Assembly: GCF_000204055.1 (NCBI RefSeq)
Contig: NW_006768787.1
Span: 248,001 to 312,000, forward strand
Direction: 5' to 3'
DNA from: Melampsora larici-populina 98AG31
Lineage: Eukaryota > Basidiomycota > Pucciniomycetes > Pucciniales > Melampsoraceae
DNA length: 64,000 nt
This document shows, piece by piece, positions 26,713 to 48,156 of this stretch. A program made the position numbers and the translations under genes. The stretch's first letter is position 1; every line of letters starts with the position of its first letter. A model generated the notes under the pieces. It saw only the letters and a program-made list of their open reading frames with translations, was not told the origin of the DNA and ran no database searches.

Positions 26713-26783
26713 TGAGACGTAAACTTCGATTACAGTCGTCTTGATGGCGGCTGGGACCAAATGCCGTAGATTCGCGCAGCGAC

Positions 26784-26910
26784 TAAGCTTAACTAAGCCC
26801 CTCTTCCGCGGCCACGTCCGCGACCTCGAAGAGGGGCTTATCGCGGACTCGCGATTTTTGGCGGAGGACTTCCAAGAATTAAGTACCGTTATGTACTTTC
26901 TTCAACTTCA
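26784..26910 (+). repeat. Left inverted terminus with hairpin
   Basis: The terminal block matches the right end (38776 down to about 38650) in inverted orientation, including CCGCGGCCACGTCCGCGACC in the hairpin loop. The only early difference is TTATCGCGG against TTACCGCGG. Confidence 0.9.
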
Positions 26911-27112
26911 CCTCAAAACCTCTCCACAAAAATTTCCATGTTTCTCGTGTCTTGTTCTCTACATTTGTCTACATAAGTTGGTACTACTTTCATCAGAAAC
27001 ACACTTGTTTTGCATATTTGGGAGGCATGACTAAATATGGTCCCTATGTCTTCCTGTAACAGCCTAAGAACGGGTGTACAGGCCATCAATCTGATTTGAC
27101 CGATTTGACCTC

Positions 27113-27703
27113 GGGCGAATCCAAACTTAACAAAGTCCCTCGCCAAAGGCCCGAGCCCCAGCGAGGGACTTACCCCATAAACTGGAATCCTGGCGTGAGA
27201 AGTGAGCTGTATTTGCTCCAAATTCTCTACATCTGTTTGTTTTTTTTCTCTCTCAACAAACATGTCTTGCAACAAAGAAAGAAGAAAAAGGCAAGGGACC
27301 ATTACATATGTACCAATTGCAAACTCCTTTCTATCTTTTTGGGAAGTTATCTTTTTGAGTAGTTGAAGATCAATTATTTTGACCGCTTTCTGAGAAATAC
27401 AGGCTTTGAGCCGGCTCGCCGCTGCTGAAAATTGAAAACAGACCCATTTTTGATTCCCCAGTAGCCCAAGTTCCAGACCAGATTTGGGGAAGCTTGCAAT
27501 TGGCTCATATGTAATGAATATTTGCCATCATCCTTTTATTTACCTCCAAGACCTGTTTATTTAGGAACAAATCAAAGAATTCAAAGTAGCGTTTTTTGAG
27601 CCAATACAGGCTACTTCTCACGCCAGGATTCCAGTTTATGGGGTAAGTCCCTCGCTGGGGCTCGGGCCTTTGGCGAGGGACTTTGTTAAGTTTGGGGCGA
27701 ATC
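27113..27703. mobile_element. 573-bp non-autonomous relative with 9-bp duplication
   Basis: Element 27122-27694 starts CAAACTTAACAAAGTCCCTC and ends with its reverse complement. The duplication GGGCGAATC flanks it at 27113-27121 and 27695-27703. The first 81 bases of the two arms are identical, and each arm contains a hairpin of GTCCCTCGC against GCGAGGGAC. There is no coding capacity. The tip CTTAACAAAG is close to CTTAACTAAG of the surrounding transposon, which suggests that the same or a related enzyme moves it. Confidence 0.88.
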
Positions 27704-27877
27704 CGGACAAATCCTTATCCTGGGTGGAAACTGTCATAAGACATAAAAGTATTATGACCTAATGGCAGTAATCCTTAGCAGTAAGGGTTAGGGGGGTGAC
27801 GCGTCTGCTGTACATAACTTATAAGATGCCACCGTGATCATCGATGCACATTCACTTGCACTCCAACTAACTACGTC

Positions 27878-30412
27878 ATGCTTACTCGCTCTCGGAGTGC
27901 TATTATTCCGCCTTTGCCTGATGTTTGCAGAACCCCAAGAACCCCAGCCGCAGCACCAGCAGCCACCAAAACTGACCCTCAAGAGTTCCGGCCAACAATC
28001 TCAAAGTCATTGCTCAAGGATGACGATGAAGAACAACGAAAAGTGATACGAGACTTATTTTACAACATATTCAAAATGATTGCTCGAGCCTTGCAAGTTG
28101 ACTCGACTATGAGTCTCGTTCGAAAAAAGGATGTTTTTCTCATCGCGAGTACCGGGTATGGCAAGTCTCGAATACCGGAATTATTCTATCTAATGTTCAC
28201 CAAAGCATGTGCGCCTATCATCTTGACTTTGAATCCTTTAGACGCGCTTGGAGATAATCAAGTAAGTTTCTCAAATGTGTCTCTGTTTGATGTTCTATAA
28301 TCATTTTCACTCACTATTTATCGGGCATTTGGACAGGTTGAAGAAAAGGCTAGAAATGGTCTGAGTGCTATCAACCTGACACGGGCGTCTTTCACGAAAG
28401 CTGTGTATAAAGAGATTCTTGCAGGAAAATACCAATTTATTTATGTGGTAAGCCCTGAAATTGATCTCGATTGTTTTTGAATCATTCCTGAGCTGACCGG
28501 ACATGTGCTTAACATAGTCGCCAGAAATTTTCTTGAATAACTCTCAATTCGAACGTCTCTATTTTTCCAAGGGATTCCGTAACCGTTTGGTGCTCAAGGT
28601 CGTAGATGAGGCTCACCTCATCTACTGTTGGGGCCTTGCCTTGTCGGGCAGAATCAAAAATTACCGATGTTTTCAGATCCCGCAAGATCGCACCGCTTTT
28701 TAGCCTTCATACGGGAACCTAGTGGAGCGGTTTCTAGCCACAGAAGCAGTACCAACTCTACTTATGTCAGCAACTTGTCCTCCTCGCAACTTCGACCAAA
28801 TTGTTGCAAGTCTCAAAATCACCAGAGATAGCATTGACATTCATCGAAGCGAACTAGTACAACCAGAGATCCGTTTCATCCGGGTCACCCTCAGACACGG
28901 ATGTTCTTCAATGGACTTGCTCAAGAAATTCTTTGCACCTAAAACCAACGTGACTGATTCCGAGCTTGTACCCACTCTTGTGTACTGTCATACACAAAAC
29001 GACACCTACTTAGCCCTTAAGGCAATTAATTCAGCCCGCCAAAACCAAATCGATTCGAGCAATGGCTTGAGTACCTCAGTTTGCCGTTATCACGCCTCAA
29101 CCTGTCCCATTGATAAGATTCGCCGAGCGCAGGATTTTGGAAAGGGGGTTTTCTCAGTAATGACCTGTACTAACGCTCTTGGCCTTGGCCAAAACTGGAC
29201 ACGTGTGAGAAGGGTGATTATTATGGGCCAGCTGGATCCGCTCGAGGTGCTGCAAATGACCGGTCGAGGCGGTCGAGACGGGCGACCAGCTGTGGCTTTT
29301 TTGATACTCAATCAATTGTCGCAGACTGACAAGGATTCGCTTTCGGTTTTGCCACATCAGAGTCTGCAAGACCACGATCATCATATGCTTGCTATGTCTA
29401 CCACTGAGGTATGCTTACGGGTGGCTTTTGAGGTCCTACTACGGTGAGTGATATGCTTTTCACATTCGGTTTATCAGGTCCGTGCTGATGCTGACTCCTT
29501 TCGTCAAATAACTTGATGAGTTGTAGGTATAACTACATACCGGTATCGAAAAATGACCAAGCCGTGACGAGTGAAACTCGACGGCAGGCCGAGGCCAATA
29601 TGGCACCGTGCCGCTGCTCGAACTGTGATTCAAATGCTGTAAATTTTTTCCTGGCTCAACAGAAAATCTTGACTCAATCGAATTTCACCGAGTTGGTCCT
29701 CCAGCAGGACGTGCCACCTGGACAACCCGACTTCAAAGTTGACTCAGAAGATCTCGTTTGTCAGGACAGTGGGATTCAAACCACATTGAGACCCATAGGC
29801 GATGACCATCCTCTACGTCAAGATATACGCTGGATTCGATTATTCCTGCGAATTCAAGCAAATCTGATGTCAATTTTTAATTTAGAATATCCTAAGGGTT
29901 CATTCTACACTCTCGATGACCTGTTCTCACCCAACAAAATTTGGAGCCTGTGCATCAACTACGACCTTGTTTTAGACAGACTGCATTTGGATGATGTGTT
30001 TGGTAGTGAACCTCTTCCAAATACATACACATCAATACATCAAGACATTCGCAAATGGAAGGCAAGCACGGATTCGATTGCAGTTTTGCACCCTTCGGAA
30101 GAAGAGATGATCATGTACAACGAAGCAAAGACCAAAGCGAAGCAAAAAAGTGCCTCCAATTTCACTAAGGCAAAAGATGCGAGCGAAAAGGACAAAGTGG
30201 TATGGTTTCATTACTTTATCTTCTAATTATCATATATGTCTTTTGTAACACTTTGGTTCATGCAATCTAACCCTGTCATGAAATTAACTACTTTATTGCA
30301 GGTAGACCCTACGACTTCAGGAATCACTGGTCCTAAGTTGACCGAGAGAAAACCACCCCCATATGTCGGTAAGAAGGGCAAATCAGCCAAACGAAGGAAC
30401 ACCGCAGTTTAG
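27878..30412 (+). pseudogene. RecQ-like superfamily 2 helicase of the transposon, one in-frame stop
   Basis: Expected to be an ATP-driven DNA-unwinding enzyme helping the element move. Exons: 27878-28261, 28337-28447, 28518-29443, 29527-30199, 30302-30412. Helicase motifs appear in order: Walker A ASTGYGKSR, VVDEAH (motif II, DEAH), LLMSATCPP (III), TLVYCHTQND (IV), CRYHASTCPIDK and QMTGRGGRDGR (VI). A Cys pair CRCSNCD (near 29610) and a basic C-terminal tail with KKGKSAKRRN follow. In exon 3 a TAG codon at 28701-28703 interrupts an otherwise open frame between the DEAH box and motif III; sequence on both sides is collinear with the family. The copy is therefore probably dead, unless the stop is read through or is a sequencing error. 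Confidence 0.85.
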
Positions 30413-33400
30413 CTCAACCTGACTTTCGGGGTGGATGTCTTCACGATTGCCTTCGGCATCAACCACCGTGTCACCCAAACAACCCCATCGATACCGAGAT
30501 ACTTCATTCTTTTTCCGGTCTTTCAAAAAGTTGTCTTGTAATACATTTGTTCCGGTCAAGACCGTATCGGTAAATTGACTTTTGACAGTCGAGTTTTTGG
30601 AAGTGACATATTGATAATTCCAAGAGCGGATAAAGTTAGCGAGGGTTTGTTCTGAAAGGTTATGGTAGTGGTTTTGAAACACAGGTTTCAGTCCGCTCCG
30701 GATTTTTAATTGTTGAATCAGTTGTCGTAGCTAGGAACAAGTTTCAATGTTTCATTAATCAATTTGAATCAAGATGTTTATTAAAAATCTCTTGCACACA
30801 CAAATGTAATGTTAATTGAAATAGCGATCAGCTTTTCAATATCCGTTCCGTTACTCTACATAATCACATGATTAATCGATGTGTTAATCAAAACCCCGAA
30901 AAAAAAAGACTAACCGTTTGATTGAAATGGTGTTTGAGCCAAAAGTTTTGGTGTTCAAGCCAGAGATCATTTCCTACAAAATGACCTGGGCGTTGACCTG
31001 ATGGAATAAGCAAACTATGCAGTATTAGTTTGGCCAAATTAGGAGGTAGGTCCTGCTCCACAAGCACAAGAAAGCGAGTCAGATGCAATGCATATCGAGG
31101 CAAGCCCTTTAACCCATGAGCCATTATTGACCATCGTTTCCACATCAGCATTAGCCTGCCAATATCACCTGCGTGTGTCGCATCATCAGCTTCCACCACA
31201 GTCGCAAAATCACGTATCCGAAGCCTTAAATTATAGCCGACATTGACCCCTATCTTATGACACGCTCTCAAAGAATCCGAGGTGCAAAATTCTTTGTAAC
31301 ATCTATCTATTAGGTCTTGGGCCGCACCCTCCTTGCCTAGGTCCGGAGGAGTCTCGTATTTTGACATAGTGTGCCTAGATCATGTTTAAAAACATGTCGT
31401 AAGATCAGGTTCTAACTTGGGATCGGGATGCAATCAAGGTGGACTCACCTTAAACACGACACCAAAGTTGTGCAGTGAACCGAGTGGAGCGCTTTCATAA
31501 CAGTTCCAAAATCCATGCTCGACGGCAGTTTAGCATTAGCTCCTTGTAATCCGCCCAAAGACTGCCATGCCTTCCACGCGCCAGTGTCCTTAGAGTCACG
31601 TGTATCACCCCAATGATGCGATAGGATCCCTTGTGCCAGGTTCCACATAATATGGGAAACCCCAGGGATAGTAAGCACACTGGTAAGGCCTCCTACGTCA
31701 GTTCCGGCGGGAGTACGCTTCTTTCGAAGACTTTCGATATTCTGACAAGTGCCAAGGTCACCTTGAACGATCCTGATCCATTTTGACATTTCTTTGAGCG
31801 TCAGCCCGCATTGAGAAGCGATTTCGTCAAAAACTTGTGCAACCCCATCTGCTGAGTTGTCGGCCGCGTCCATTAGGCTCATCAGAAACAAATGGCGATC
31901 ATCTACAGGAATCTGGTCTACCGGAGGTGGCCTTGTAGCAATTTTGGGTGAGGGAGTCGTTCCAGCTTTGAGAATGTATTTGTACATGACCGTGGCTAGC
32001 TGACTTTTTAAAGTCGCCTCCCACTGGTTCATATCACTTGCCTTTTCCCTGAAAGTGTCCAACCGGACCGGGGAATTCCGAGCTTCAGCCAAGGATTGAT
32101 GGTAGTTTCGAAGGTGAGTGCTCGGACTTTCTTTCAAGATATCTTTATCTAGGTATTTAGGTAAAAACTGAATATAACCCCATGTGCCATGAAAGAGATG
32201 CGACACAGTCTCTACTCGGGTATTGTGAACTCTTTGTAAGATATCAAAGTTATCGATGCAGATTATTGGGCATATACTATAAGGCTGGGCCATAAGTGCT
32301 CGCAGTGAGGCTTCTCGCTCGCTTTTGAGATGATTTAAAGTTTGTAAAGCTGTATCTCGAGAACTTGACAGGCCTAAAGTATTCAAATATTGAAAAACTC
32401 TATCAGACACTCCAGTTGCAATGAAAGTCAACGCGTTGTGCGACTGAAGCGCATTATCTCTATAATTAGACATGTACGAGACCATGCCACATATGGTGGT
32501 TGCAACCTAAAACAGTTATATCAAGTCAGTTGAGTAACCGCAATCTTTGTAAAGCAAGTAAGTGTGGTACTTGCCAGATTTGCTCGGTCTCTTTCTGCCT
32601 TAGTTTGGTCTTCTGGAAGATAAAGCATTTCCTCGTCATGTCGGGCTTCCCTCTCGCCAACAGTTTCAGTCGCCAGGCCGGTTTCAGCATCTGGATCATG
32701 TTCTGAATGTTCGTCTTCCAACGTGTCCCAAACGTTGCTGCGGTGAGCAGGCGTCATAAGAGCCGCACGATTATTTGATCTAAGCGATAGCTGATGATAC
32801 ATCAGATTCCACAAAAATGGCATTGAGGCCTTTAATTTATCTTCACGCGCGTGTAATTGACCTAGCTCAAAGAACTCGTTTGTGATTTTTTGTGAACTAT
32901 AAAAACATCGAGGTTTGGACATAATTTCTTGTTGAATTTCTTCTTGCGCCTATGAGAACCATTATCATTAAAGAGATTCAGGGATGGTTCTTTATCTGAA
33001 TAGATTAAGGATCTAGTATCAGTCTTATGTTTGACTGGTGCTTGATCGAAAGAAACCACAATACCTGAATAGATTAAGGATCTAGTATCAGTCTTATGTT
33101 TGACTGGTGCTTGATCGAAAGAAACCACAATCTAAGAAAAGAGATTGAGAAAGGTTTCTGATAATGAGTTCGATAAGGAAAAGAACAACTAGATGTGTAC
33201 AACACTTGTTCTAATATATTACTGACTCGAACTCAATGATTACATAAGATGTTAGAAAAGAGAAACTCTTCTATAATGCATATGACAGTATGCGCGTCCT
33301 GCTCCTCAGCATGACGTCACTACGTGACGTTCAATTCCCCCCCATCTTGATAACATCATGTAAATTTAATGCCTTACAAAAGTTGAGATGTTTTGCCGGT

Positions 33401-36400
33401 GATAAAGCCTTTGTCATAACATCAGCTATCATGTCTACTGTTGGCACATATTCCACCGTCAATTGCTTCGTCTTGACCAATTCGCGTAACCAATGGTACT
33501 TTACGTCTACATGCTTGGTCCTTCTCTTGAACTTTTCATTCTTCGACAAAGCAATGGCACCTTGATTATCTAGTTTAAAAATTGGTGAACTTCTTTGACC
33601 AATACCCATACCTTTCATCACATTTGTAACCCAAACTACATCTTGTCCTCCTTCGTAAGCAGACCTGTACTCCGCCTCCGTCGTTGATGTTGCCACATTT
33701 TCTTGTTTCCTACTTGTCCAATTTACCGTACTTTCACCAAGCCTTGTCACATATCCCCCTGTTGAGCGTCGCGTTCTTGGACATGCTGCGAAATCAGCAT
33801 CTGCAAACGCATTCAACTCCAAATCACTACCTCCTAGTACTAAACCTAAATCCTGCGTTCCTTTCAAAAACATTAAGACCCTCTTGAATGCTGTCCAATG
33901 TACGATTGACGGTTTGTTGAGGTGTTGAGATAGTTGAGACACAACAAAAGACAGATCTGGGCGTGTTGCGTTGTTTAGATACATCAGCTTTCCGACTGCT
34001 CGACGATAACTTATACCTAAGTCCAGAAATTGTTGATTTTCTTCGTCTGTTCCCGGTACAAGATAGGTGTTGAGGATCATTGGTGAACCAACAGGCTTAC
34101 AGTCGGTCATAGAATAATCTTCAAGTAGATCACGAATATACTGACCTTGTGAGAGTGTAATCGTCTTGGCTTGTCGATCACGAGTCACCTTCATGCCTAA
34201 AATGTACTTGAAGTCCACATTCTCGTCCATTTGAAACTTCTTCGTAATGGCAGAGTGAAAGCGTTTGAAATCATTAGTCGCGATGACCATGTCATCAACG
34301 TGTACATGTACGATGCACTTCCACTTCGGATCATGAGAGATGAAGACGCTTGGATCTTGAGCCGACGGTAAGAGAAGAATAGTTTTGAAGAAAGCTTTCA
34401 GCGTATCGTACCACACTTTTGGAGCCTGTTTTAAACCATAAAGTGCTTGTTTGAGCTCTAGCACAGTGTTTTCTGTCGCATCCTCAATGTTGAGTCCTTT
34501 GGGAATTTTCATATAAATTCGTTCTTCAGGTGAAGCGTTCAAGAAAGCAGCCACTGCGTCCATTTGATAGACGTCCAAGTCTTCAGCCGCCGCTACAGCA
34601 CAGAGAATTCGAAGAGAGACTAGTCGAGCTGTCGGAGCAAAGGTTTCATTGTAATCTTCGCCGAATTCTTGAGAAAAGCCTTGAGCACACGGTCGCGCTT
34701 TGTACTTCAGCAGTTCACCGTCACCACCTAGCTTCTTCTTAAACACCCAAGTCGTGCCGATTGCGCGACGACCCTTAGGTAAGATTACGACATCCCAGAC
34801 TTTTCTAGTATCCATGTCGTTCAATTCAGCAGTAATCACACGTTGCCAATCTGTTTTGTCCGTGCCCATCAAAGCCTGTCGATAAGTTTTGGGTGAAGTG
34901 TTGGTTAATTTAACGGTGTTCGCTCTCCGCGAGGATCCTTCAGGCAAGATGTTGAAGGTGTCGATGTCACTACAGATGTCATTTGGCGCTTTCGACCACA
35001 CATGATACTCCCAACCTGGCCTTGCCTTCTCAGTAAGCTGCTTCATCACCTCATCTTCGTCATCCTCATCTTCAGCAAAAGGATTTTCATTTGAAGTGTC
35101 AGCTGGTAAAGCCGGTTTGTTAGGTGATGTCGGCGCGATCGCAATTTGTTGAGGAGATGAAGCTGGTGAAGTTGGAAGAGGTTGTTCCGGTTCAGTTGGT
35201 GAATCAGGAACTTCAACAATTGGTGCGGCATCTGAAGGAGCATCGTTCAAAACAGAGACAGTATCTTGAATCGATAGATGAGTGTCCTCATGAAAAAGAC
35301 CGTCCAAATCAGTCTCAGTTACCTGATCTCCATTTTCAACACCCGGAAAACAGGCAGTGTCAAAAGTCACATCGTGAGAATAAACAACACGACCGTCATC
35401 AAGTCGAACACGATAATTTTTCATACCCACTTGATATCCCAGCAGTATACCACTCATCGAGGTGCTGTCGAATTTTCGTCGGAACTGCTTAGGGATTAAC
35501 ACAAAAGCACGACACCCAAAAGGTTTGAGTCTGGAATAGTCAAAGCTCCTACCAAACCACAACTCATATGCTGATTTATTGTTCGTGATCTTAGCCGGAG
35601 TGATATTCTCTAAGAACACTGCCGTCATCACAGCCTCAGCCCAAAAGCGATAAGGTAATTTTGATTGCCTCAGTAAAGTCCTTGCTTTTTCAGTCGTGGT
35701 TCGATTGCCTCTTTCCGAGACAGGATTTTGTTGAGGGGTGTAAGGAGCACTTAAGTGAGAAGTCGTCCCATTTTCCTTCAGCAATTTTTGAAATTCCTTC
35801 GACAGATATTCTCCACCTTGATCATTAACAAGACTCACGATCTTTTTGTTGTGCAGAGTCTCAACATTTGATTTGTAGTTTAAAAAGCACGAAAATGTTT
35901 CTGATTTTAATTTCATTATGTAAACATATTTATAGTTTGTACAAAAGTCTGTGAGTTTGAAATAGTATTGACCTCCACCTTCAGATGGTACAGAGATTTT
36001 ACCACTGAGATCACTGTGAACCATATCTAAGGGAGATTTAGAGGAAGGGAAATGTCCAGAATAGGGAAGCCTGTGACCTTTAGACAGTTTGCAAATATCA
36101 CAACTCCAGCCTGAGGGTTCCGACACATCATACATTATCTTAAGGCGCTCGGATCCGGGATGACCTCCCTGTCTGTGTAAGACGTCGTAGTCAGAGATTG
36201 AGATATTGACACGAGGAGAGGGAGCGGAACTTGACGTGCCTAAAGTAATGTCGAGTTCTATGACATGATTAACGACATGACCAATAAAACCACCAGCACC
36301 TTTCTTCGTCATGATAATGTCATCAACATAGCTTGAGATTGAGTAACCGTCCATGATCAAAGCACCCATGCTTATCAAACAGCAGCCGAGTTCTGGTACA

Positions 36401-38566
36401 TGTAGGGCCTGAAGGATGACCTCATCGTCAGCTGAATTGCACCGGATGTTGCCTTTACCAATGATCTCAATCTTCTTGCCGTTAGCCAACGCGACCGTAG
36501 ACGAGACAGATTCGTAGTGTTCAAATAGATCCCGATCTGGAACCATGTGATGAGAACATCCACTATCCAACAAGATTGAATCGTGATCAGAGGAAACCAC
36601 AACAAAAGCTTTCGCCTCAAAGAAAGTGTTATCTACGGCAACAGCTGCGGCGCGAGGTCGAGTAGTACGAGGAGGTCGAAGAGCAGGATTAACTTGATAG
36701 CATTCTGTGGAGGTGTGACTCTTGACGTCATTGTTATGACGTCCGTTAGAGCAATAAGCGAAGCCCGGTCGGTTAAGATTAAGAGGGCGTTGAGTGACAG
36801 ATCGTTGAAGAGATCTAGGTTGGTGAACAGCCAGAGCAATAGCAGTTGCATGCTCTTCCTCGTCCTTGATGGCCGAGAGCTGATCCTCTAAATAGTTTAA
36901 GACTTTTCAGGAGTCAAAGGACGTTCTTTTCGGAGTAACGTCTTGGTGATGTCCATCGAGACAGGAAGCTTGGTGACAATCGTTTCCCCGAGATATTTCA
37001 GGGCAATGTGTTGAATGCCATCGACAGCGAGCATACCAGCAAGGGCATGTTGAGTGTCAGTTATGTAGGATTCGAGGTTCGTGAACGTGAGGTCAGTGAA
37101 CTTGAGATAGGCTCTCGCCTGATTTTCGTCAGAAGACGACTGAAAGTGCTCCTTGAGTATCTTCCAGATTTGAATAGGATCCGAGACAGCGTCTTTTGAA
37201 GTGATTCGGACGCGGTTGTCTTGATCGATACAACCATACAGAATTCCAGCAGCTTTCTTTCTCTTGGCGTTGTATACGGCAATTTGCACAGAAGCATCGT
37301 TCAATTCGGTTTTGGTTGGAATGACAGGTGGACTGTCGATGTTGGTGAACTCCTCCAAGTTGACAGTCATCAAGTGAGCGATGACGTCACCTGACCATTC
37401 GACGTAATTCGTCTTGGCCAGCTTGGGAAAATGAGTTCTAGCTGAGCTCGCGTTATCGTTCATGATTGAGATGAGAGTAAATTGAAGATGAAAAATGTTT
37501 TCGAAAAATCGACGACAGTCGATCGAAAAATTTTGATTGATAAGCGCTTATTGGAGCGCTGGGCTCATAACCAAAGAGATTCAGGGATGGTTCTTTATCT
37601 GAATAGATTAAGGATCTAGTATCAGTCTTATGTTTGACTGGTGCTTGATCGAAAGAAACCACAATCTAAGAAAAGAGATTGAGAAAGGTTTCTGATAATG
37701 AGTTCGATAAGGAAAAGAACAACTAGATGTGTACAACACTTGTTCTAATATATTACTGACTCGAACTCAATGATTACATAAGATGTTAGAAAAGAGAAAC
37801 TCTTCTATAATGCATATGACAGTATGCACGTCCTGCTCCTCAGCATGACGTCACTACGTGACGTTCAATTTCATTAACTTGTATACCACCGTTAAGAAAG
37901 AAGAACACTCACCTCGCTCAAAATAAACTTGCACCATGCAGCCCGGCCTTCCTCACTATTTTGAGTCAGGTCCTTGATCGCACGCACAATTTGGAAAGTG
38001 GAGTTCAAACCTCTTTCGATACCCCAATAACGTCGACTTTCTTTTAAAACGGGGTTATCCGCACATAAAAAAGAGTAAAATACCTCTTTAGCAAAGGTCT
38101 GCTGACTTTTTGCAGTAGAACATAACTGCACAGCAATGGACTCGATGAAGGGACGCTGGCGGATTTTGGTTTCTTGCTCCATGGGAGGTCGCTGGCTCTT
38201 TGTGATTTCTTGAGGCTGCAATTTTTGATAGCGGTCACTCTGTAGTTTTGGGAATGGCCGCGCGCCAGAATCCCTTCCCAAATTTTGAACAAAATTTTTG
38301 TGTCCATTTTGTGGTTCAAAATTTTTGTGTACCACAAAAGCGCGTAACCACAAGAACGCGTACTTAACCTCACCGTGCTCAGCCATCCCATACAAAACCG
38401 AGCTAAAACCAAGGACAAAACGCAAGGAGGTTTTGCCCACAAATTTGGGGTTTTGTTCCAAAAAATCATTCCGGGGTATTTTCCGGGGTATTTGACTGGA
38501 ACATACACAAGCACATCCAATGATGCTTACCACCCAACATGGAAACCGTTCCGCCGAGTAAAGCAC
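30383..38566 (-). CDS. DUF6589-family protein, candidate transposase, intron holds a retrotransposon
   Basis: Minus-strand gene of the same transposon. Main exons: about 38566-37913, 32949 to about 32570, about 32500-31446, about 31371-30916 and 30730-30383. Removing the intron 37912-32950 joins LSE to AQEEIQQE in frame; the copia element lies wholly inside that intron. A candidate acidic triad is visible: Asp in ICIDNFDIL (32252-32254), Asp in VQGDLGT (31757-31759) and Glu in WLEHQNFWLK (30954-30956), in the order and context of DUF6589 proteins. The junction near 32500-32570 is not resolved in frame and the start at 38566 is tentative. The 3' end overlaps the helicase gene by 30 bp. That DUF6589 is a DDE enzyme is inference. 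Confidence 0.72.
32970..33336 (-). repeat. 3' LTR, 367 bp, with internal 69-bp duplication
   Basis: Same sequence as the other LTR except for one base (G against A, in TATGCGCGTCC/TATGCACGTCC) and a tandem 69-bp duplication starting near CTGAATAGATTAAGG. Confidence 0.92.
33331..36900 (-). CDS. Copia pol: protease, integrase, reverse transcriptase, RNase H
   Basis: An open frame of about 1,190 codons continuous with the end of gag-like sequence. Visible in order: zinc-knuckle-like YCSNGRHNNDVKSHTSTEC; protease ILLDSGCSHHM; integrase HHCC (HRQGGHPG and CDICK); integrase triad in HSDLSGK, VNDQGGEY and VSERGNRTTTEKAR; reverse transcriptase QMDAVAAFLNA and HVDDMVIA; RNase H NAFADADFAA, TEAEYRSAYEG and KHVDVKYHWLRE. 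The stop codon lies inside the 3' LTR after the purine tract, which itself is translated. All catalytic acids are present. The frame of the first 90 codons (36900-36600) has no own start and follows gag in the -1 frame. Confidence 0.93.
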   Translation of the reverse strand, partial: LNYLEDQLSAIKDEEEHATAIALAVHQPRSLQRSVTQRPLNLNRPGFAYCSNGRHNNDVKSHTSTECYQVNPALRPPRTTRPRAAAVAVDNTFFEAKAFVVVSSDHDSILLDSGCSHHMVPDRDLFEHYESVSSTVALANGKKIEIIGKGNIRCNSADDEVILQALHVPELGCCLISMGALIMDGYSISSYVDDIIMTKKGAGGFIGHVVNHVIELDITLGTSSSAPSPRVNISISDYDVLHRQGGHPGSERLKIMYDVSEPSGWSCDICKLSKGHRLPYSGHFPSSKSPLDMVHSDLSGKISVPSEGGGQYYFKLTDFCTNYKYVYIMKLKSETFSCFLNYKSNVETLHNKKIVSLVNDQGGEYLSKEFQKLLKENGTTSHLSAPYTPQQNPVSERGNRTTTEKARTLLRQSKLPYRFWAEAVMTAVFLENITPAKITNNKSAYELWFGRSFDYSRLKPFGCRAFVLIPKQFRRKFDSTSMSGILLGYQVGMKNYRVRLDDGRVVYSHDVTFDTACFPGVENGDQVTETDLDGLFHEDTHLSIQDTVSVLNDAPSDAAPIVEVPDSPTEPEQPLPTSPASSPQQIAIAPTSPNKPALPADTSNENPFAEDEDDEDEVMKQLTEKARPGWEYHVWSKAPNDICSDIDTFNILPEGSSRRANTVKLTNTSPKTYRQALMGTDKTDWQRVITAELNDMDTRKVWDVVILPKGRRAIGTTWVFKKKLGGDGELLKYKARPCAQGFSQEFGEDYNETFAPTARLVSLRILCAVAAAEDLDVYQMDAVAAFLNASPEERIYMKIPKGLNIEDATENTVLELKQALYGLKQAPKVWYDTLKAFFKTILLLPSAQDPSVFISHDPKWKCIVHVHVDDMVIATNDFKRFHSAITKKFQMDENVDFKYILGMKVTRDRQAKTITLSQGQYIRDLLEDYSMTDCKPVGSPMILNTYLVPGTDEENQQFLDLGISYRRAVGKLMYLNNATRPDLSFVVSQLSQHLNKPSIVHWTAFKRVLMFLKGTQDLGLVLGGSDLELNAFADADFAACPRTRRSTGGYVTRLGESTVNWTSRKQENVATSTTEAEYRSAYEGGQDVVWVTNVMKGMGIGQRSSPIFKLDNQGAIALSKNEKFKRRTKHVDVKYHWLRELVKTKQLTVEYVPTVDMIADVMTKALSPAKHLNFCKALNLHDVIKMGGN
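36897..37463 (-). CDS. Copia gag
   Basis: 188 codons starting about 90 bp after the primer site. The sequence has the copia gag helical core, for example YVEWSGDVIAHL near the start and WKILKEHFQSSSDENQARAY in the middle. It stops at TAA 36897-36899, directly after RPLTPEKS. The pol frame resumes at this point in the -1 frame through an A-run, which points to loss of a single base or to a frameshift. Confidence 0.85.
   Translation of the reverse strand: MNDNASSARTHFPKLAKTNYVEWSGDVIAHLMTVNLEEFTNIDSPPVIPTKTELNDASVQIAVYNAKRKKAAGILYGCIDQDNRVRITSKDAVSDPIQIWKILKEHFQSSSDENQARAYLKFTDLTFTNLESYITDTQHALAGMLAVDGIQHIALKYLGETIVTKLPVSMDITKTLLRKERPLTPEKS
37554..37572 (-). other. Primer binding site for half-tRNA initiator Met
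   Basis: The plus strand reads GAGCGCTGGGCTCATAACC, the anticodon-arm sequence of initiator tRNA-Met with CAT in the loop; the element strand is its complement, touching the 5' LTR. This matches priming by a tRNA cut in the anticodon loop, as known for Drosophila copia and Ty5. Confidence 0.85.
37573..37870 (-). repeat. 5' LTR, 298 bp
   Basis: Pairs with 32970-33336. A single substitution outside the extra 69-bp unit marks a recent insertion. Confidence 0.93.
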
Positions 38567-38649
38567 AAGTGTGGGGTATCAAAATATGTACAAAAGCTTT
38601 GAGAACAACATATCAGAAGGCTGGCACTTTCTGGCCAGAGGTGTTGAGG

Positions 38650-38776
38650 GAAAGTTGAAAGAAGTACATAACAGTACTTAATTCTTGGAAGTCCTCCGCG
38701 AAAAATCGCGAGTCCGCGGTAAGCCCCTCTTCGAGGTCGCGGACGTGGCCGCGGAAGAGGGGCTTAGTTAAGCTTA
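38650..38776 (-). repeat. Right inverted terminus with hairpin
   Basis: Inverted partner of 26784-26910, ending AGTTAAGCTTA next to the 9-bp duplication at 38777-38785. Confidence 0.9.
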
Positions 38777-38785
38777 CGCAGCGAC

Positions 38786-39771: not shown

Positions 39772-40000
39772 TAAGCTTAACTAAGCCCCTCTCGCGCGGC
39801 TGCGTCCGCGCCCCTCGAAGAGGGGCTTACAACGGACTCGTACTTTTACTTTTTGGCAGGAGAGCTCCAAGAATTAAGGTGCCTTAAGTAGTTTTTTGGG
39901 CTTCTGCTCGAGCCCTCACCGTAGAATTTCTCAAGTTTCTCGTATGTTGTTCTTCACACTTTTGTACATGATCTGGTACCTCATACACCACGGACCCACC
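39772..40000 (+). mobile_element. Solitary related transposon terminus
   Basis: TAAGCTTAACTAAGCCCCTC is identical to the first 20 bases of the large transposon, followed by a diverged hairpin (loop rich in GCG) and by about 170 bp of weakly similar subterminal DNA ending near a TGGTAC motif. No inverted partner end is visible downstream in the window. Confidence 0.65.
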
Positions 40001-44324: not shown

Positions 44325-47300
44325 TTATGTTCTTGACGGACCAGCCACTGGTGTATCCCCTTGCGTATTTCTTCGAGTATACTTTCGTTTTTTGTTTGTT
44401 TGGCCACTCTCCTTTGCTGTCTCTCTCTCTTTTGCTTTTTGATTGTTCTTTTCTTTTTTTTCCTTAGCTTGTTTCAACGTGGCTTCCCATTTCGTGATTC
44501 CAGTCTGCAAGGCGGTTTTCCACTCTTCAGGGGTTACTTCAGGAAAATCAAGATGTGCCCAAGTTCGATGGAGCTCCGCCGAATGAAATGCGGCTGAGTT
44601 GAGGACAAATGACGAGGTTTCTTCATGAACAACCATATGGTCCTTTTTCGTTGAAACTCGCCTTTCGATCATGATTGGCCGGCACTTTCGAACAACACAG
44701 CCGCTTTTGTGGCAGTTGTGTTGTACATTGAGTAAACCCTCGACTTCCTGATGAACGGTTTGCGTAAGAGAGATCATCAGAGAAGAACGATTCTGAGAGT
44801 ACCATCATATCGAAAACCAAGCGTACCACTGGATTGATCCAGACAACATGGGTTGTCTCTTCAATTTCACGCATACCGTATAACTCACTGACTTGTCCAG
44901 TCTTGCACCTGGTTACTTCGATCTTGCATTGCTGAGGTCCACATCCATCTGCTTTCCAGATTCTCTTGACCCGTCCAATGATTTTGCCTGTTGTAGAAAT
45001 GTTGACGAAATATCTCGATTCAACCTGTGCAAATCAGAAAATCATTAATGAAAAGCCTATTGCCACAAAGGAAACAATTGCTCACCGAGAGGAAGTCATC
45101 TGGCTTGATGATTTCGCCATTCTTGAGGGTAAAAGAGTCTAAAACCTTCCATTTCTTTGATGTGTAGGCATCCATGATCTCATTCGGAATGAGGGTTTCC
45201 GGATTTGACGGCTGCACTTCATTCGATTCTATAGGATTGGGAGTAACATCAGCTTGCATACAAAAAACTTATTGTGTGTGAGAGTACTCACTTCCCGGTT
45301 TGAAATCCCCTTGCGTGTTCCAAGACGAATTATACCCTAGAGCCTTCTGAAGTAAGACATTTGTTCTGAATAATTCGGTGACTTTGGGGCTTGCTTTGAT
45401 ATAAGTGTGGAGATGGCTGTCGTAATTGCGGCATCCCGCCAATATTGATCGGATGAGGCGGTGGTTATTGAAAGAGTTTGCTATATCTCTTCCAGGACTC
45501 AGATGATTCGAATGAATGGAAGAATTACGAGTATTTCCATTAAATGCTTCAAAGTTTTCAGTGGCGAAAAGACAAGCTGGCCCAAATCGCCGAATAGCGT
45601 CGCAAATATGTATCAGCATGTGAAATTTGGGTTTATTGCACCATTGTGCAGAAAGCTGTACTATTGATCGCAGAAATAAAAAAACGTGAATCTGCAGTTG
45701 CTTGAGATAAGATTCCATGTTTGTGATTTCGGTCTGGAAGATGTAGGGCGCCAGATGAGCAAGACAAGTCCATGCCTCGCGTTCGTGATCTGATAAAGAG
45801 CACTGAAAGAAGATAAAAGGTGCTGCTTGGAGCACAGTTCGAAATTCCTTCCCAGTTAGACTAAGAAAATGATTAATCATTGACTTAGGTTGAATGGGAG
45901 GTATCTTCAAACCAGAAGTGTTGAAGGATCGCCACCGACCCCATATATCATTTTTCTCACGAGCAGAAGAATTTTGCATTTGGTGGCGCATTAGGTATTT
46001 TGCAATACCTAACAACAGAACGTGTAAGATCTCCACCGGAGTATCTCGATGTCCATCGAAGCCTGGAAGGATTCAACCCAAGTCTGTCAGTACGAACAAG
46101 AAAGATTGAGAAGAATAGAAGGTGTTCAACTCACCTTTCAAGCGTAAAAAGGGATTGAAAAGGCGCTCTCCAAATTTTCTGTTGAGCTCATTGCACATCT
46201 CAACCACTTCATCACTTGCCAGCTCTGGATCTCGGTGGAAATCTTGTACCTCTTTGACAAAAGGTCCATTTACTGCATCCCGCAGACCCAGACGTGACGA
46301 CTCAGTCTCGAATGCCCGAAAAGTTCCTGGACGCTGAGCTAGATCCCAAAGGTCCTTTGTGCCCGATTGGGTTGTTGCCCAGTTGCGCGTAGGAAGGGAG
46401 AACTTCCGTCCGTTTTCGTCCACACCAACGAAGTTACTGACGTACTTTGCCTTTTTCTTTTCGGCTAGATTTTGGACTTTGAGGTCACAGACACGGCACG
46501 GAGACAGCGATACGGTTGGGTTCATTGTGTTGGACACCTCTGCATGCATCGGCGAGTCACCTAAATGACAAAGTACCGCCGTCATCACCAAAACCTCTTT
46601 TTCGGTCCGGTGATCGTAGGCCACAAAGCCATTGGTGGCTAGCTCATTGATTTCGTCAATCAATGGGTCAGCTAACTCTAAAGCACCGGCGGTGTTCGAT
46701 GTTGTCAAAAAATGGCAGTTGTATTCCTGATTTGAGAGTTTGGGAGGTAATCCGGCTAACGTGAAGTAAAAGGCCATATGTTTATTCCACCTCTTTGATA
46801 TGTTTCCTGAGAGGTCGTCGCAATACAACACGAGTGGCATGTGTCGAATGAGCTTTCCATTTGCCTTTTGACGCCAAGGATTCTGTAAAGGCAATGCCAA
46901 GTAATTTTCGCCACTGACTTTCTCGTATATTGAATCACCACATAAGCTCTTCATTAATAAATTATCGCGTAACTCAATGGTGTCAAATGTTTTCCAAAAT
47001 TCCTTGACATTGAACGACCTTAAGGCTGGAGAATTAAAGTCCGAGACAGACTCGAAATGTACTCGACATCGCACACGACCTTCAGCATCCTTGGAGTAAG
47101 TTTGATTGGAAGCGACACATCGGGCGAAGGTCTCATCTCCTTCTTGATAAAAAAAAATTGGAATGACAAGCCGCTTGGAGTTTAATTGAACCGGTTCATA
47201 TAGATAAAAATGACCGCGGGGTGAATCAACCATCTGAACACGTAGATCTCGGTCCAGCTCCTCTCTCCACTTTCTGGACTGTGCTAAGCGATTGATTTTT

Positions 47301-48156
47301 GTGGTCGAGCTTGGTAATTCGGGCATAAAATGAAGGTGATCGGCGACGTAAGGGTTACTGAGTTCTTGGGATAGTATTTGTTGAACTTTAAGCGAAAAGC
47401 AAGGTTTATTCAATGGACTCATAGCCTCGGAGACGTCGAAGCCGTAAAGTTTCTTCAGCTTGTTGCGGCAGTTCCGAAGAGATTTGTATCCAGGGAGTTT
47501 GACGCCCAAGAGACCAACAAAAGAACGGATCCGTTCATATTGACATACTGATGAGGTCGTCCTACTCGTTCCCAGAATCAATAGTCCAACAAGTTGCTCC
47601 AAGCTGGTGAAAGGGGCCCAGGTTGATCCATCACCGTCTGTGTCATTCAAATCCAATTCTTCTTCTTCTTCTTCGTCCATATCAGCTTCATCACCTTGTC
47701 AGAACGATTGGCTGAGAGATCATCGTCGTCGACACTGTTGAGGCTGATGATTTCTGGATCAAACGCAGCGGTGTGGTTTCGAGTCCACAGATCAAGGAGA
47801 GTTTGTGGACGACGTAGATCCTCATCGTTGGTGTCGGAGTCTATGATGGGAGTTGTGATCATTGTATCATCGACTTCTTGGACTTCGTCACTTTCATCAC
47901 CTGATTCGGGTGGATGTTGGTCTGAGTCGGGTGGGGGCGGTGTTAAATTAATTCGAACAGGTTCGATGGGTGCAGGGATGTTTCTTTGAGCTTCTTCCCA
48001 TCGTGCGAGATGGGTCAAATGTGATTGGTTTTGACAGTGTCGTCGAATAGAGCCAACTTTCAATGACCGCAGTCCATCACAAGCAAGACACGAATAATCT
48101 TTGCCGGAACCCGATTGATGGTCTGCCTCCTTGAAGCCTGATGTAACGCACAGCAC
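44325..48156 (-). CDS. Tnp2/CACTA-like transposase
   Basis: Large transposase of a type abundant in basidiomycetes. The N-terminus has a zinc-finger-like CLACDGLRSLKVGSIRRHCQ. The central exon (about 47680-46135) includes MPLVLYCDDLSGNISKRWNK, SNTAGALELADPL and SPCRVCDLKVQN. Splicing 46134-46063 joins LKG to FDGHRDTPVEILHVLLLG, a strong family hallmark, and this exon runs to 45292. Later exons carry ESRYFVNISTTGKIIGRV and, after a probable very short intron near 44810, VQHNCHKSGC. The tail is Lys/Glu-rich and basic (KKRKYTRR). At about 47650-47690 the frame changes beside a GAA run: a short intron or a frameshift. I could not find the element's inverted tips, so activity is uncertain. A KDZ transposase was considered and rejected. 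Confidence 0.8.

Follow-up and report, generated by a model that had tools for sequence, protein, structure and literature searches.

A probable new AcademH-type DNA transposon family pairing a DUF6589 protein with a RecQ-like helicase in Melampsora larici-populina, and its hairpin-like derivatives

The window analysed here, a stretch of 64,000 nucleotides of the Melampsora larici-populina 98AG31 genome, carries between positions 26784 and 38776 one inserted unit of 11,993 bp, which is flanked by two copies of a 9-bp sequence, terminated by long inverted repeats and occupied by two convergent genes, one for a RecQ-like helicase and one for a protein with the DUF6589 domain. The features of the locus are the following (coordinates in the window, strand where one applies):

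26775..26783, left target duplication CGCAGCGAC, from the 9-mer count in the window
26784..26984, plus strand, left terminal inverted repeat, with a 10-nt tip TAAGCTTAAC followed by a hairpin from nt 11 to 57
27122..27694, nested 573-bp MITE of the tip-plus-hairpin design, with its duplication GGGCGAATC at 27113-27121 and 27695-27703
27818..30226, plus strand, RecQ-like SF2 helicase gene, with stop-to-stop ORFs 27818-28300, 28704-29447 and 29495-30226
30383..38578, minus strand, DUF6589 (PF20231) gene for a putative DDE transposase, split by the Copia insertion, with stop-to-stop ORFs 37892-38578 (holding exon 1), 32521-32949, 31445-32506, 30888-31379 and 30383-30730
32971..37871, minus strand, Copia retrotransposon, a later insertion that does not belong to the transposon proper, with a 5-bp duplication CATTA
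38576..38776, minus strand, right terminal inverted repeat, with tip and hairpin arms identical to the left
38777..38785, right target duplication CGCAGCGAC, from the 9-mer count in the window
39772..39985, plus strand, separate truncated copy of a 607-bp MITE family of the same group, 96% identical over 216 nt to the family member L053

The window contains exactly two occurrences of the 9-mer CGCAGCGAC, one at each edge of the unit, and none of 100 shuffles contained two. Just inside, the inverted arms measure 201 nt each and are 85% complementary, and the end of the unit folds as a hairpin (z of -6.55) whose stability was equalled in none of 200 shuffles. Pfam searches identified Helicase_C, passing the cut-off, in the plus-strand ORF 28704-29447 and DUF6589 in the minus-strand ORFs 31445-32506 and 30888-31379. 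The perfect 9-bp target duplication, the long hairpin-bearing ends and the convergent helicase and DUF6589 genes of the original prediction were thus all recovered. Its complete mobile unit of about 12 kb was upheld with one refinement: the segment is one inserted unit once later insertions are removed, complete at its ends, but its genes are interrupted and this copy is therefore not intact.

Uninterrupted related copies measure about 6.5 kb, and the length of the window unit results from the two later insertions that it contains, the Copia element and the 573-bp MITE. The former has two near-identical 275-nt repeats and RVT_2 among other Pol-type domains (Pfam), and the 9-bp target GGGCGAATC of the latter is present once at the empty corresponding site of the related copy L010. 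Three pieces of the window unit, 99.2-100% identical to L010, jointly cover all 6505 bases of that copy, in which a helicase ORF of 309 aa corresponds to one shortened to 247 aa in the window. The window copy itself gave no empty site when this assembly was searched with the joined flanks. In the Copia element, the left LTR contains a perfect 69-bp tandem duplication (window 32996-33131), of which the right LTR has one copy. Outside the unit, the MITE copy at 39772-39985 lies 1 kb to the right, with a decayed tip-like sequence at about 39606, and a 541-aa ORF at 46073-47698 on the minus strand gave a weak match to Transposase_21, below the cut-off, so that another DNA transposon may lie there.

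Further copies are present in the genome (98.3 Mb, 243 contigs). Among eight places examined, six copies have both ends, each with its own perfect 9-bp duplication (L010-L013, 6502-6505 bp; L009, 6761 bp; L014, 7293 bp); the stretches read for the two others held one end (L015) or none (L016), and these were excluded from the duplication count. A convergent helicase gene was also found in all of four distant loci (L047-L050), which had been picked among those already showing a nearby helicase match and are not an unbiased sample; in two of them (L047 and L049) both ends are present with a perfect 9-bp duplication, while the stretch of L048 is short at one end and that of L050 holds no long inverted repeat. 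Five more tip pairs enclosing DUF6589 matches were obtained by motif search, four of them with a perfect 9-bp duplication. The remaining pair belongs to the L048 element (L070/L071, C7:2005960-2012960), which has well-matched tips and long inverted repeats and no duplication, and is perhaps the product of recombination between copies. Counting the window copy, both ends were read in 14 large elements, and 13 of these are bordered by perfect 9-bp duplications, all of different sequence. The condition set for refuting the original prediction (no further copies with these ends, or copies lacking a 9-bp duplication) did not overturn it. Paralogous empty sites are available for two of these copies. 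L011 is inserted in another repeat, uninterrupted copies of which (L078 and L079, the two read letter by letter among ten matches spanning the junction) hold the target GCAGAAGGC once, and the target of L010 is matched by an empty site (L080) with one mismatch beside the target.

Both genes were read spliced, at predicted introns, from the related copy L013, where they are convergent with stop codons overlapping by 4 bp. After predicted splicing, each remains open over five exons, for 748 aa in the helicase gene and 838 aa in the DUF6589 gene. The second intron of the latter is of the GC-AG type with a GCAAGT donor (element reverse strand 1266-1330). The spliced helicase matches DEAD at 6.4e-10 and Helicase_C at 22.5 bits for a cut-off of 23.5, and the spliced DUF6589 protein matches its Pfam family at 4.9e-59; apart from a sub-threshold CARD match, these were the only families found in the two L013 proteins, neither of which matched an XPG nuclease. 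By sequence, the solved proteins nearest to the helicase are WRN, RECQ4, RECQ5 and bacterial RecQ. Five families were compared, with 26-80% identity to L013 over the aligned pieces, and all five have helicase motifs I, II, III and V as well as a CxCSxCD cluster; motif VI has Q in place of R in L013 and L049. Comparing L013 with L009, L010 and L014, with codons containing gaps or stops excluded, dN/dS was 0.10-0.11 for DUF6589 and 0.14 for the helicase, values that are rough because dS is about 0.9-1.3 (and saturated against L047). Between these subfamilies, such ratios point to purifying selection on both genes and argue that both proteins have been kept. The near-identical copies L011-L013 gave dN/dS of 1.0-1.4, as expected from few recent changes.

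With the PF20231 profile, this genome yielded 104 matches at E up to 0.001, and 14 control genomes yielded none. Within 1.5 kb of 30 listed DUF6589 loci, a helicase match was found in 14 and none in 16, and the latter may reflect the short 1.5-kb flanks or helicase-free elements. We aligned the open pieces of these loci with L013, leaving out near-duplicates and broken pieces, so that 18 of the 30 loci contributed to a first block and 22 to a second. In L013 numbering, D311 is present in 18 of 19 rows (the remaining piece begins downstream of it), D476 in 18 of 19 (N in one) and E719 in all 23, and from this conservation we infer that D311, D476 and E719 are the best candidates for a DDE triad. 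At 508-511 the motif reads GxxH, its G and H being found in 19/19 rows. Searches of the DUF6589 profile against PDB sequences returned chance-level matches only, none of the 15 DUF6589 sequences scanned convincingly matched another Pfam family, and neither a single sequence nor a 15-row alignment found relatives in viral contigs. Structure prediction for one window ORF, run without relatives, reached a pLDDT of 38, too low for a fold to be recognised.

The ends of these elements share a common design. In all nine ends folded, from six families, a tip of 10 or 11 nt is followed by a hairpin, the first base of its main stem being nt 11 or 12, with fold z-scores of -2.3 to -6.6; for four of the nine (both ends of L047, and those of L064 and L057), 1 to 5 of 200 shuffles folded equally well, and the L060 end has four additional outer pairs. 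As read from the sequences, one stem pair is changed on both sides between families, from C-G to T-A. The same pair is changed on a single side in L049 and L068, the latter folding with a mismatch there, and the stem pairing is thus not strictly kept. The genome contains 178 occurrences of the tip motif TTAACTAAGCCCCTC and 0 of its reversed control; for TTAACTAAGYCCCNTC the counts are 33 and 1. Derivatives of 603, 607, 680, 801 and 2616 bp share these tips, and seven of the eight examined (L053-L060) have a perfect 9-bp duplication, the exception being the 2.6-kb L060, which has none.

In L047 and in the 801-bp MITEs L055 and L056, the two ends share tips and stems and differ in their hairpin loops, a difference common to the 6.5-kb element and to these MITEs. 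This difference raised the possibility that the end hairpins flip-flop, as happens in hairpin-transfer replication; the idea was dropped, the loops being by eye different sequences and not reverse complements. A hairpin about 10 nt from the 3' terminus and an encoded helicase are also features of Helitrons, from which the present elements differ by their inverted repeats and target duplication; moreover, no HUH nuclease match was found in the two proteins.

Terminal inverted repeats are a trait of the AcademH group of DNA transposons, and an XPG nuclease is a trait of AcademX. The elements described here have terminal inverted repeats, an SF II RecQ-like helicase and a 9-bp duplication (13 of 14), with no XPG nuclease match. 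AcademH (Kojima 2020, Mob DNA 11:15), compared here as described in PMC10045372 and PMC10799480, likewise combines a helicase with a transposase and a 9 or 10 bp duplication in fungi. AcademX, the other lineage of the Academ superfamily, has a nuclease for the helicase, and the accessible part of the source relates its duplications of 3 or 4 bp, versus the 9 or 10 bp of AcademH, to this difference (PMC10045372). Excerpts of other reports mention a RecQ helicase in Academ (PMC3627910) and AcademH at low copy in Basidiomycota, Ascomycota and Mucoromycota (PMC10799480). Because the helicase and the 9-bp duplication fit AcademH, we class these elements among the AcademH-type DNA transposons, as a new family with DUF6589 as its putative transposase, and it appears very probable that they are such a family and move by a mechanism relying on a DUF6589 transposase and a RecQ-like helicase. 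The AcademH lead given by the original prediction is in this way supported, by description and as putative with regard to the transposase.

It seems improbable that these elements instead form a new superfamily merely sharing with AcademH the helicase-plus-transposase plan and the 9-bp duplication. Such a reading would accord with a match made by description rather than by transposase alignment, with a domain that Pfam calls unknown and with the word DUF6589 not being found in the literature searched. It is countered by the two published AcademH traits present here, the helicase and a duplication within the 9 or 10 bp described, and by the fact that, in the part of the survey at hand, AcademH is already known from the fungal groups listed above, Basidiomycota included (PMC10799480).

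A KolobokH or otherwise Kolobok-like element is still less probable, to the point of being hardly tenable, and is already largely refuted by the 9-bp duplications. The target duplication of Kolobok is TTAA, whereas those observed here are 9 bp long and varied. In the portions of the Kolobok study available, KolobokH does encode a RecQ helicase and is restricted to fungi, and in Kolobok-1_CCri, from a red alga, the helicase is on the complementary strand, as in the window unit; however, the helicase of fungal KolobokH is placed downstream of the transposase domain, whereas here it is a separate convergent gene, and a C/DxxH signature is common to Kolobok and MuDR between the second D and the E, where all 19 rows of our alignment have GxxH (PMC9587614). 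This last difference applies equally to a Mutator-like element (MULE), which the 9-bp duplication and the 201-nt inverted repeats would recall and to which we likewise attach very little probability, since no Pfam MULE match was found in 15 DUF6589 sequences at E up to 1, nor in the spliced protein. Mutator-like elements have long inverted repeats and duplications of about 9 bp, and to our knowledge a RecQ helicase partner is not one of their features.

For the AcademH-type family that we favour, the observations are the 9-bp duplication and the tips held in common, and the enzyme roles that we infer would be distributed as follows. The DUF6589 protein, as a putative DDE transposase, would cut at the tips and join the 3' ends to target DNA with a stagger of 9 bp. 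The element-encoded RecQ-like helicase would unwind the hairpin-bearing ends or the strand-transfer intermediate, an activity that would let excision and gap repair finish. Non-autonomous copies, MITEs and short hairpins would be moved in trans by both proteins.

The short hairpins constitute the part of these results that may be new. Searching for two opposed tips revealed 39 hairpin-like units of 50-101 bp in the genome (L061-L063, L081-L116). By spacing between tips, the search found 19 places at 10-40 nt, 20 at 41-71 nt and one at 72-102 nt, in which the two tips look unrelated by eye, versus 0 for the reversed controls in each of the three bins. Among 100 listed of the 178 TTAACTAAGCCCCTC tips, 27 opposed pairs lie within 15 kb, with sizes of 50 and 61 bp and then at least 603 bp; sizes of about 135-570 bp were covered solely by these 100 listed tips of one motif. 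All 39 units have arms of at least 19 nt pairing with up to two mismatches, the outermost four bases being uncounted and about 12 positions being fixed by the search pattern, and self-complementarity over the whole length is at least 70% in 33 units and 56-69% in the rest. At the predicted edge, the 9-bp duplication is perfect in 26 of the 39 units and has at most one mismatch in 30, the other nine showing two to eight mismatches; pairing the flanks of different units as a control gave 2 perfect matches in 1482. About 35 of the 39 units are independent, since the loci of two pairs (L104/L106, 76 bp each, and L111/L112) are duplicated and two further pairs (L099/L114 and L103/L113) have the look of oppositely oriented duplicates.

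In some units, the match to one end of a known family extends over 40-45 nt and that to the other end over 23-33 nt (L061 with the L055 family, L063 with the family at 39772, and L093 with the window MITE). Such sequences fit a joining of two ends inside their hairpins with the loss of everything in between, and the units of 50-101 bp look like minimal mobile hairpins. We found no description of short hairpin units of this group in a limited literature search, which included the shortest and palindromic MITEs. The palindromic MITE-like repeats M1 and M2 of pithoviruses, as presented in the available part of their description, are comparable in being short palindromic units with inverted arms (54 and 47 bp), a short middle (37 bp) and a putative target duplication (TA); they differ in that no element is linked to them, whereas the units described here measure 50-101 bp, have a 9-bp duplication and carry the tips of a known autonomous group (PMC10664404).

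More tentatively, and with low probability in our estimation, the 50-101 bp units might form a class of mobile DNA of their own, that of minimal hairpin transposons, whose whole content would be two AcademH-type tips in one hairpin. The transposase may then act on an extruded hairpin or cruciform, because double-stranded DNA this short bends poorly to join its ends, which a hairpin already places next to each other; the opening of that hairpin may be the work of the RecQ-like helicase. Such a hairpin substrate would explain the upper limit of 101 bp, the single match in the next spacing bin and the sizes of at least 573 bp seen for MITEs.

These results provide a mobile-element context for a Pfam family of unknown function, together with a testable candidate catalytic triad. 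Should the hairpin-only units have moved as such, a total of about 50 bp would suffice as the ends of an element of this kind, and these units would offer a natural substrate series for the element's own helicase, of relevance to AcademH and KolobokH alike.
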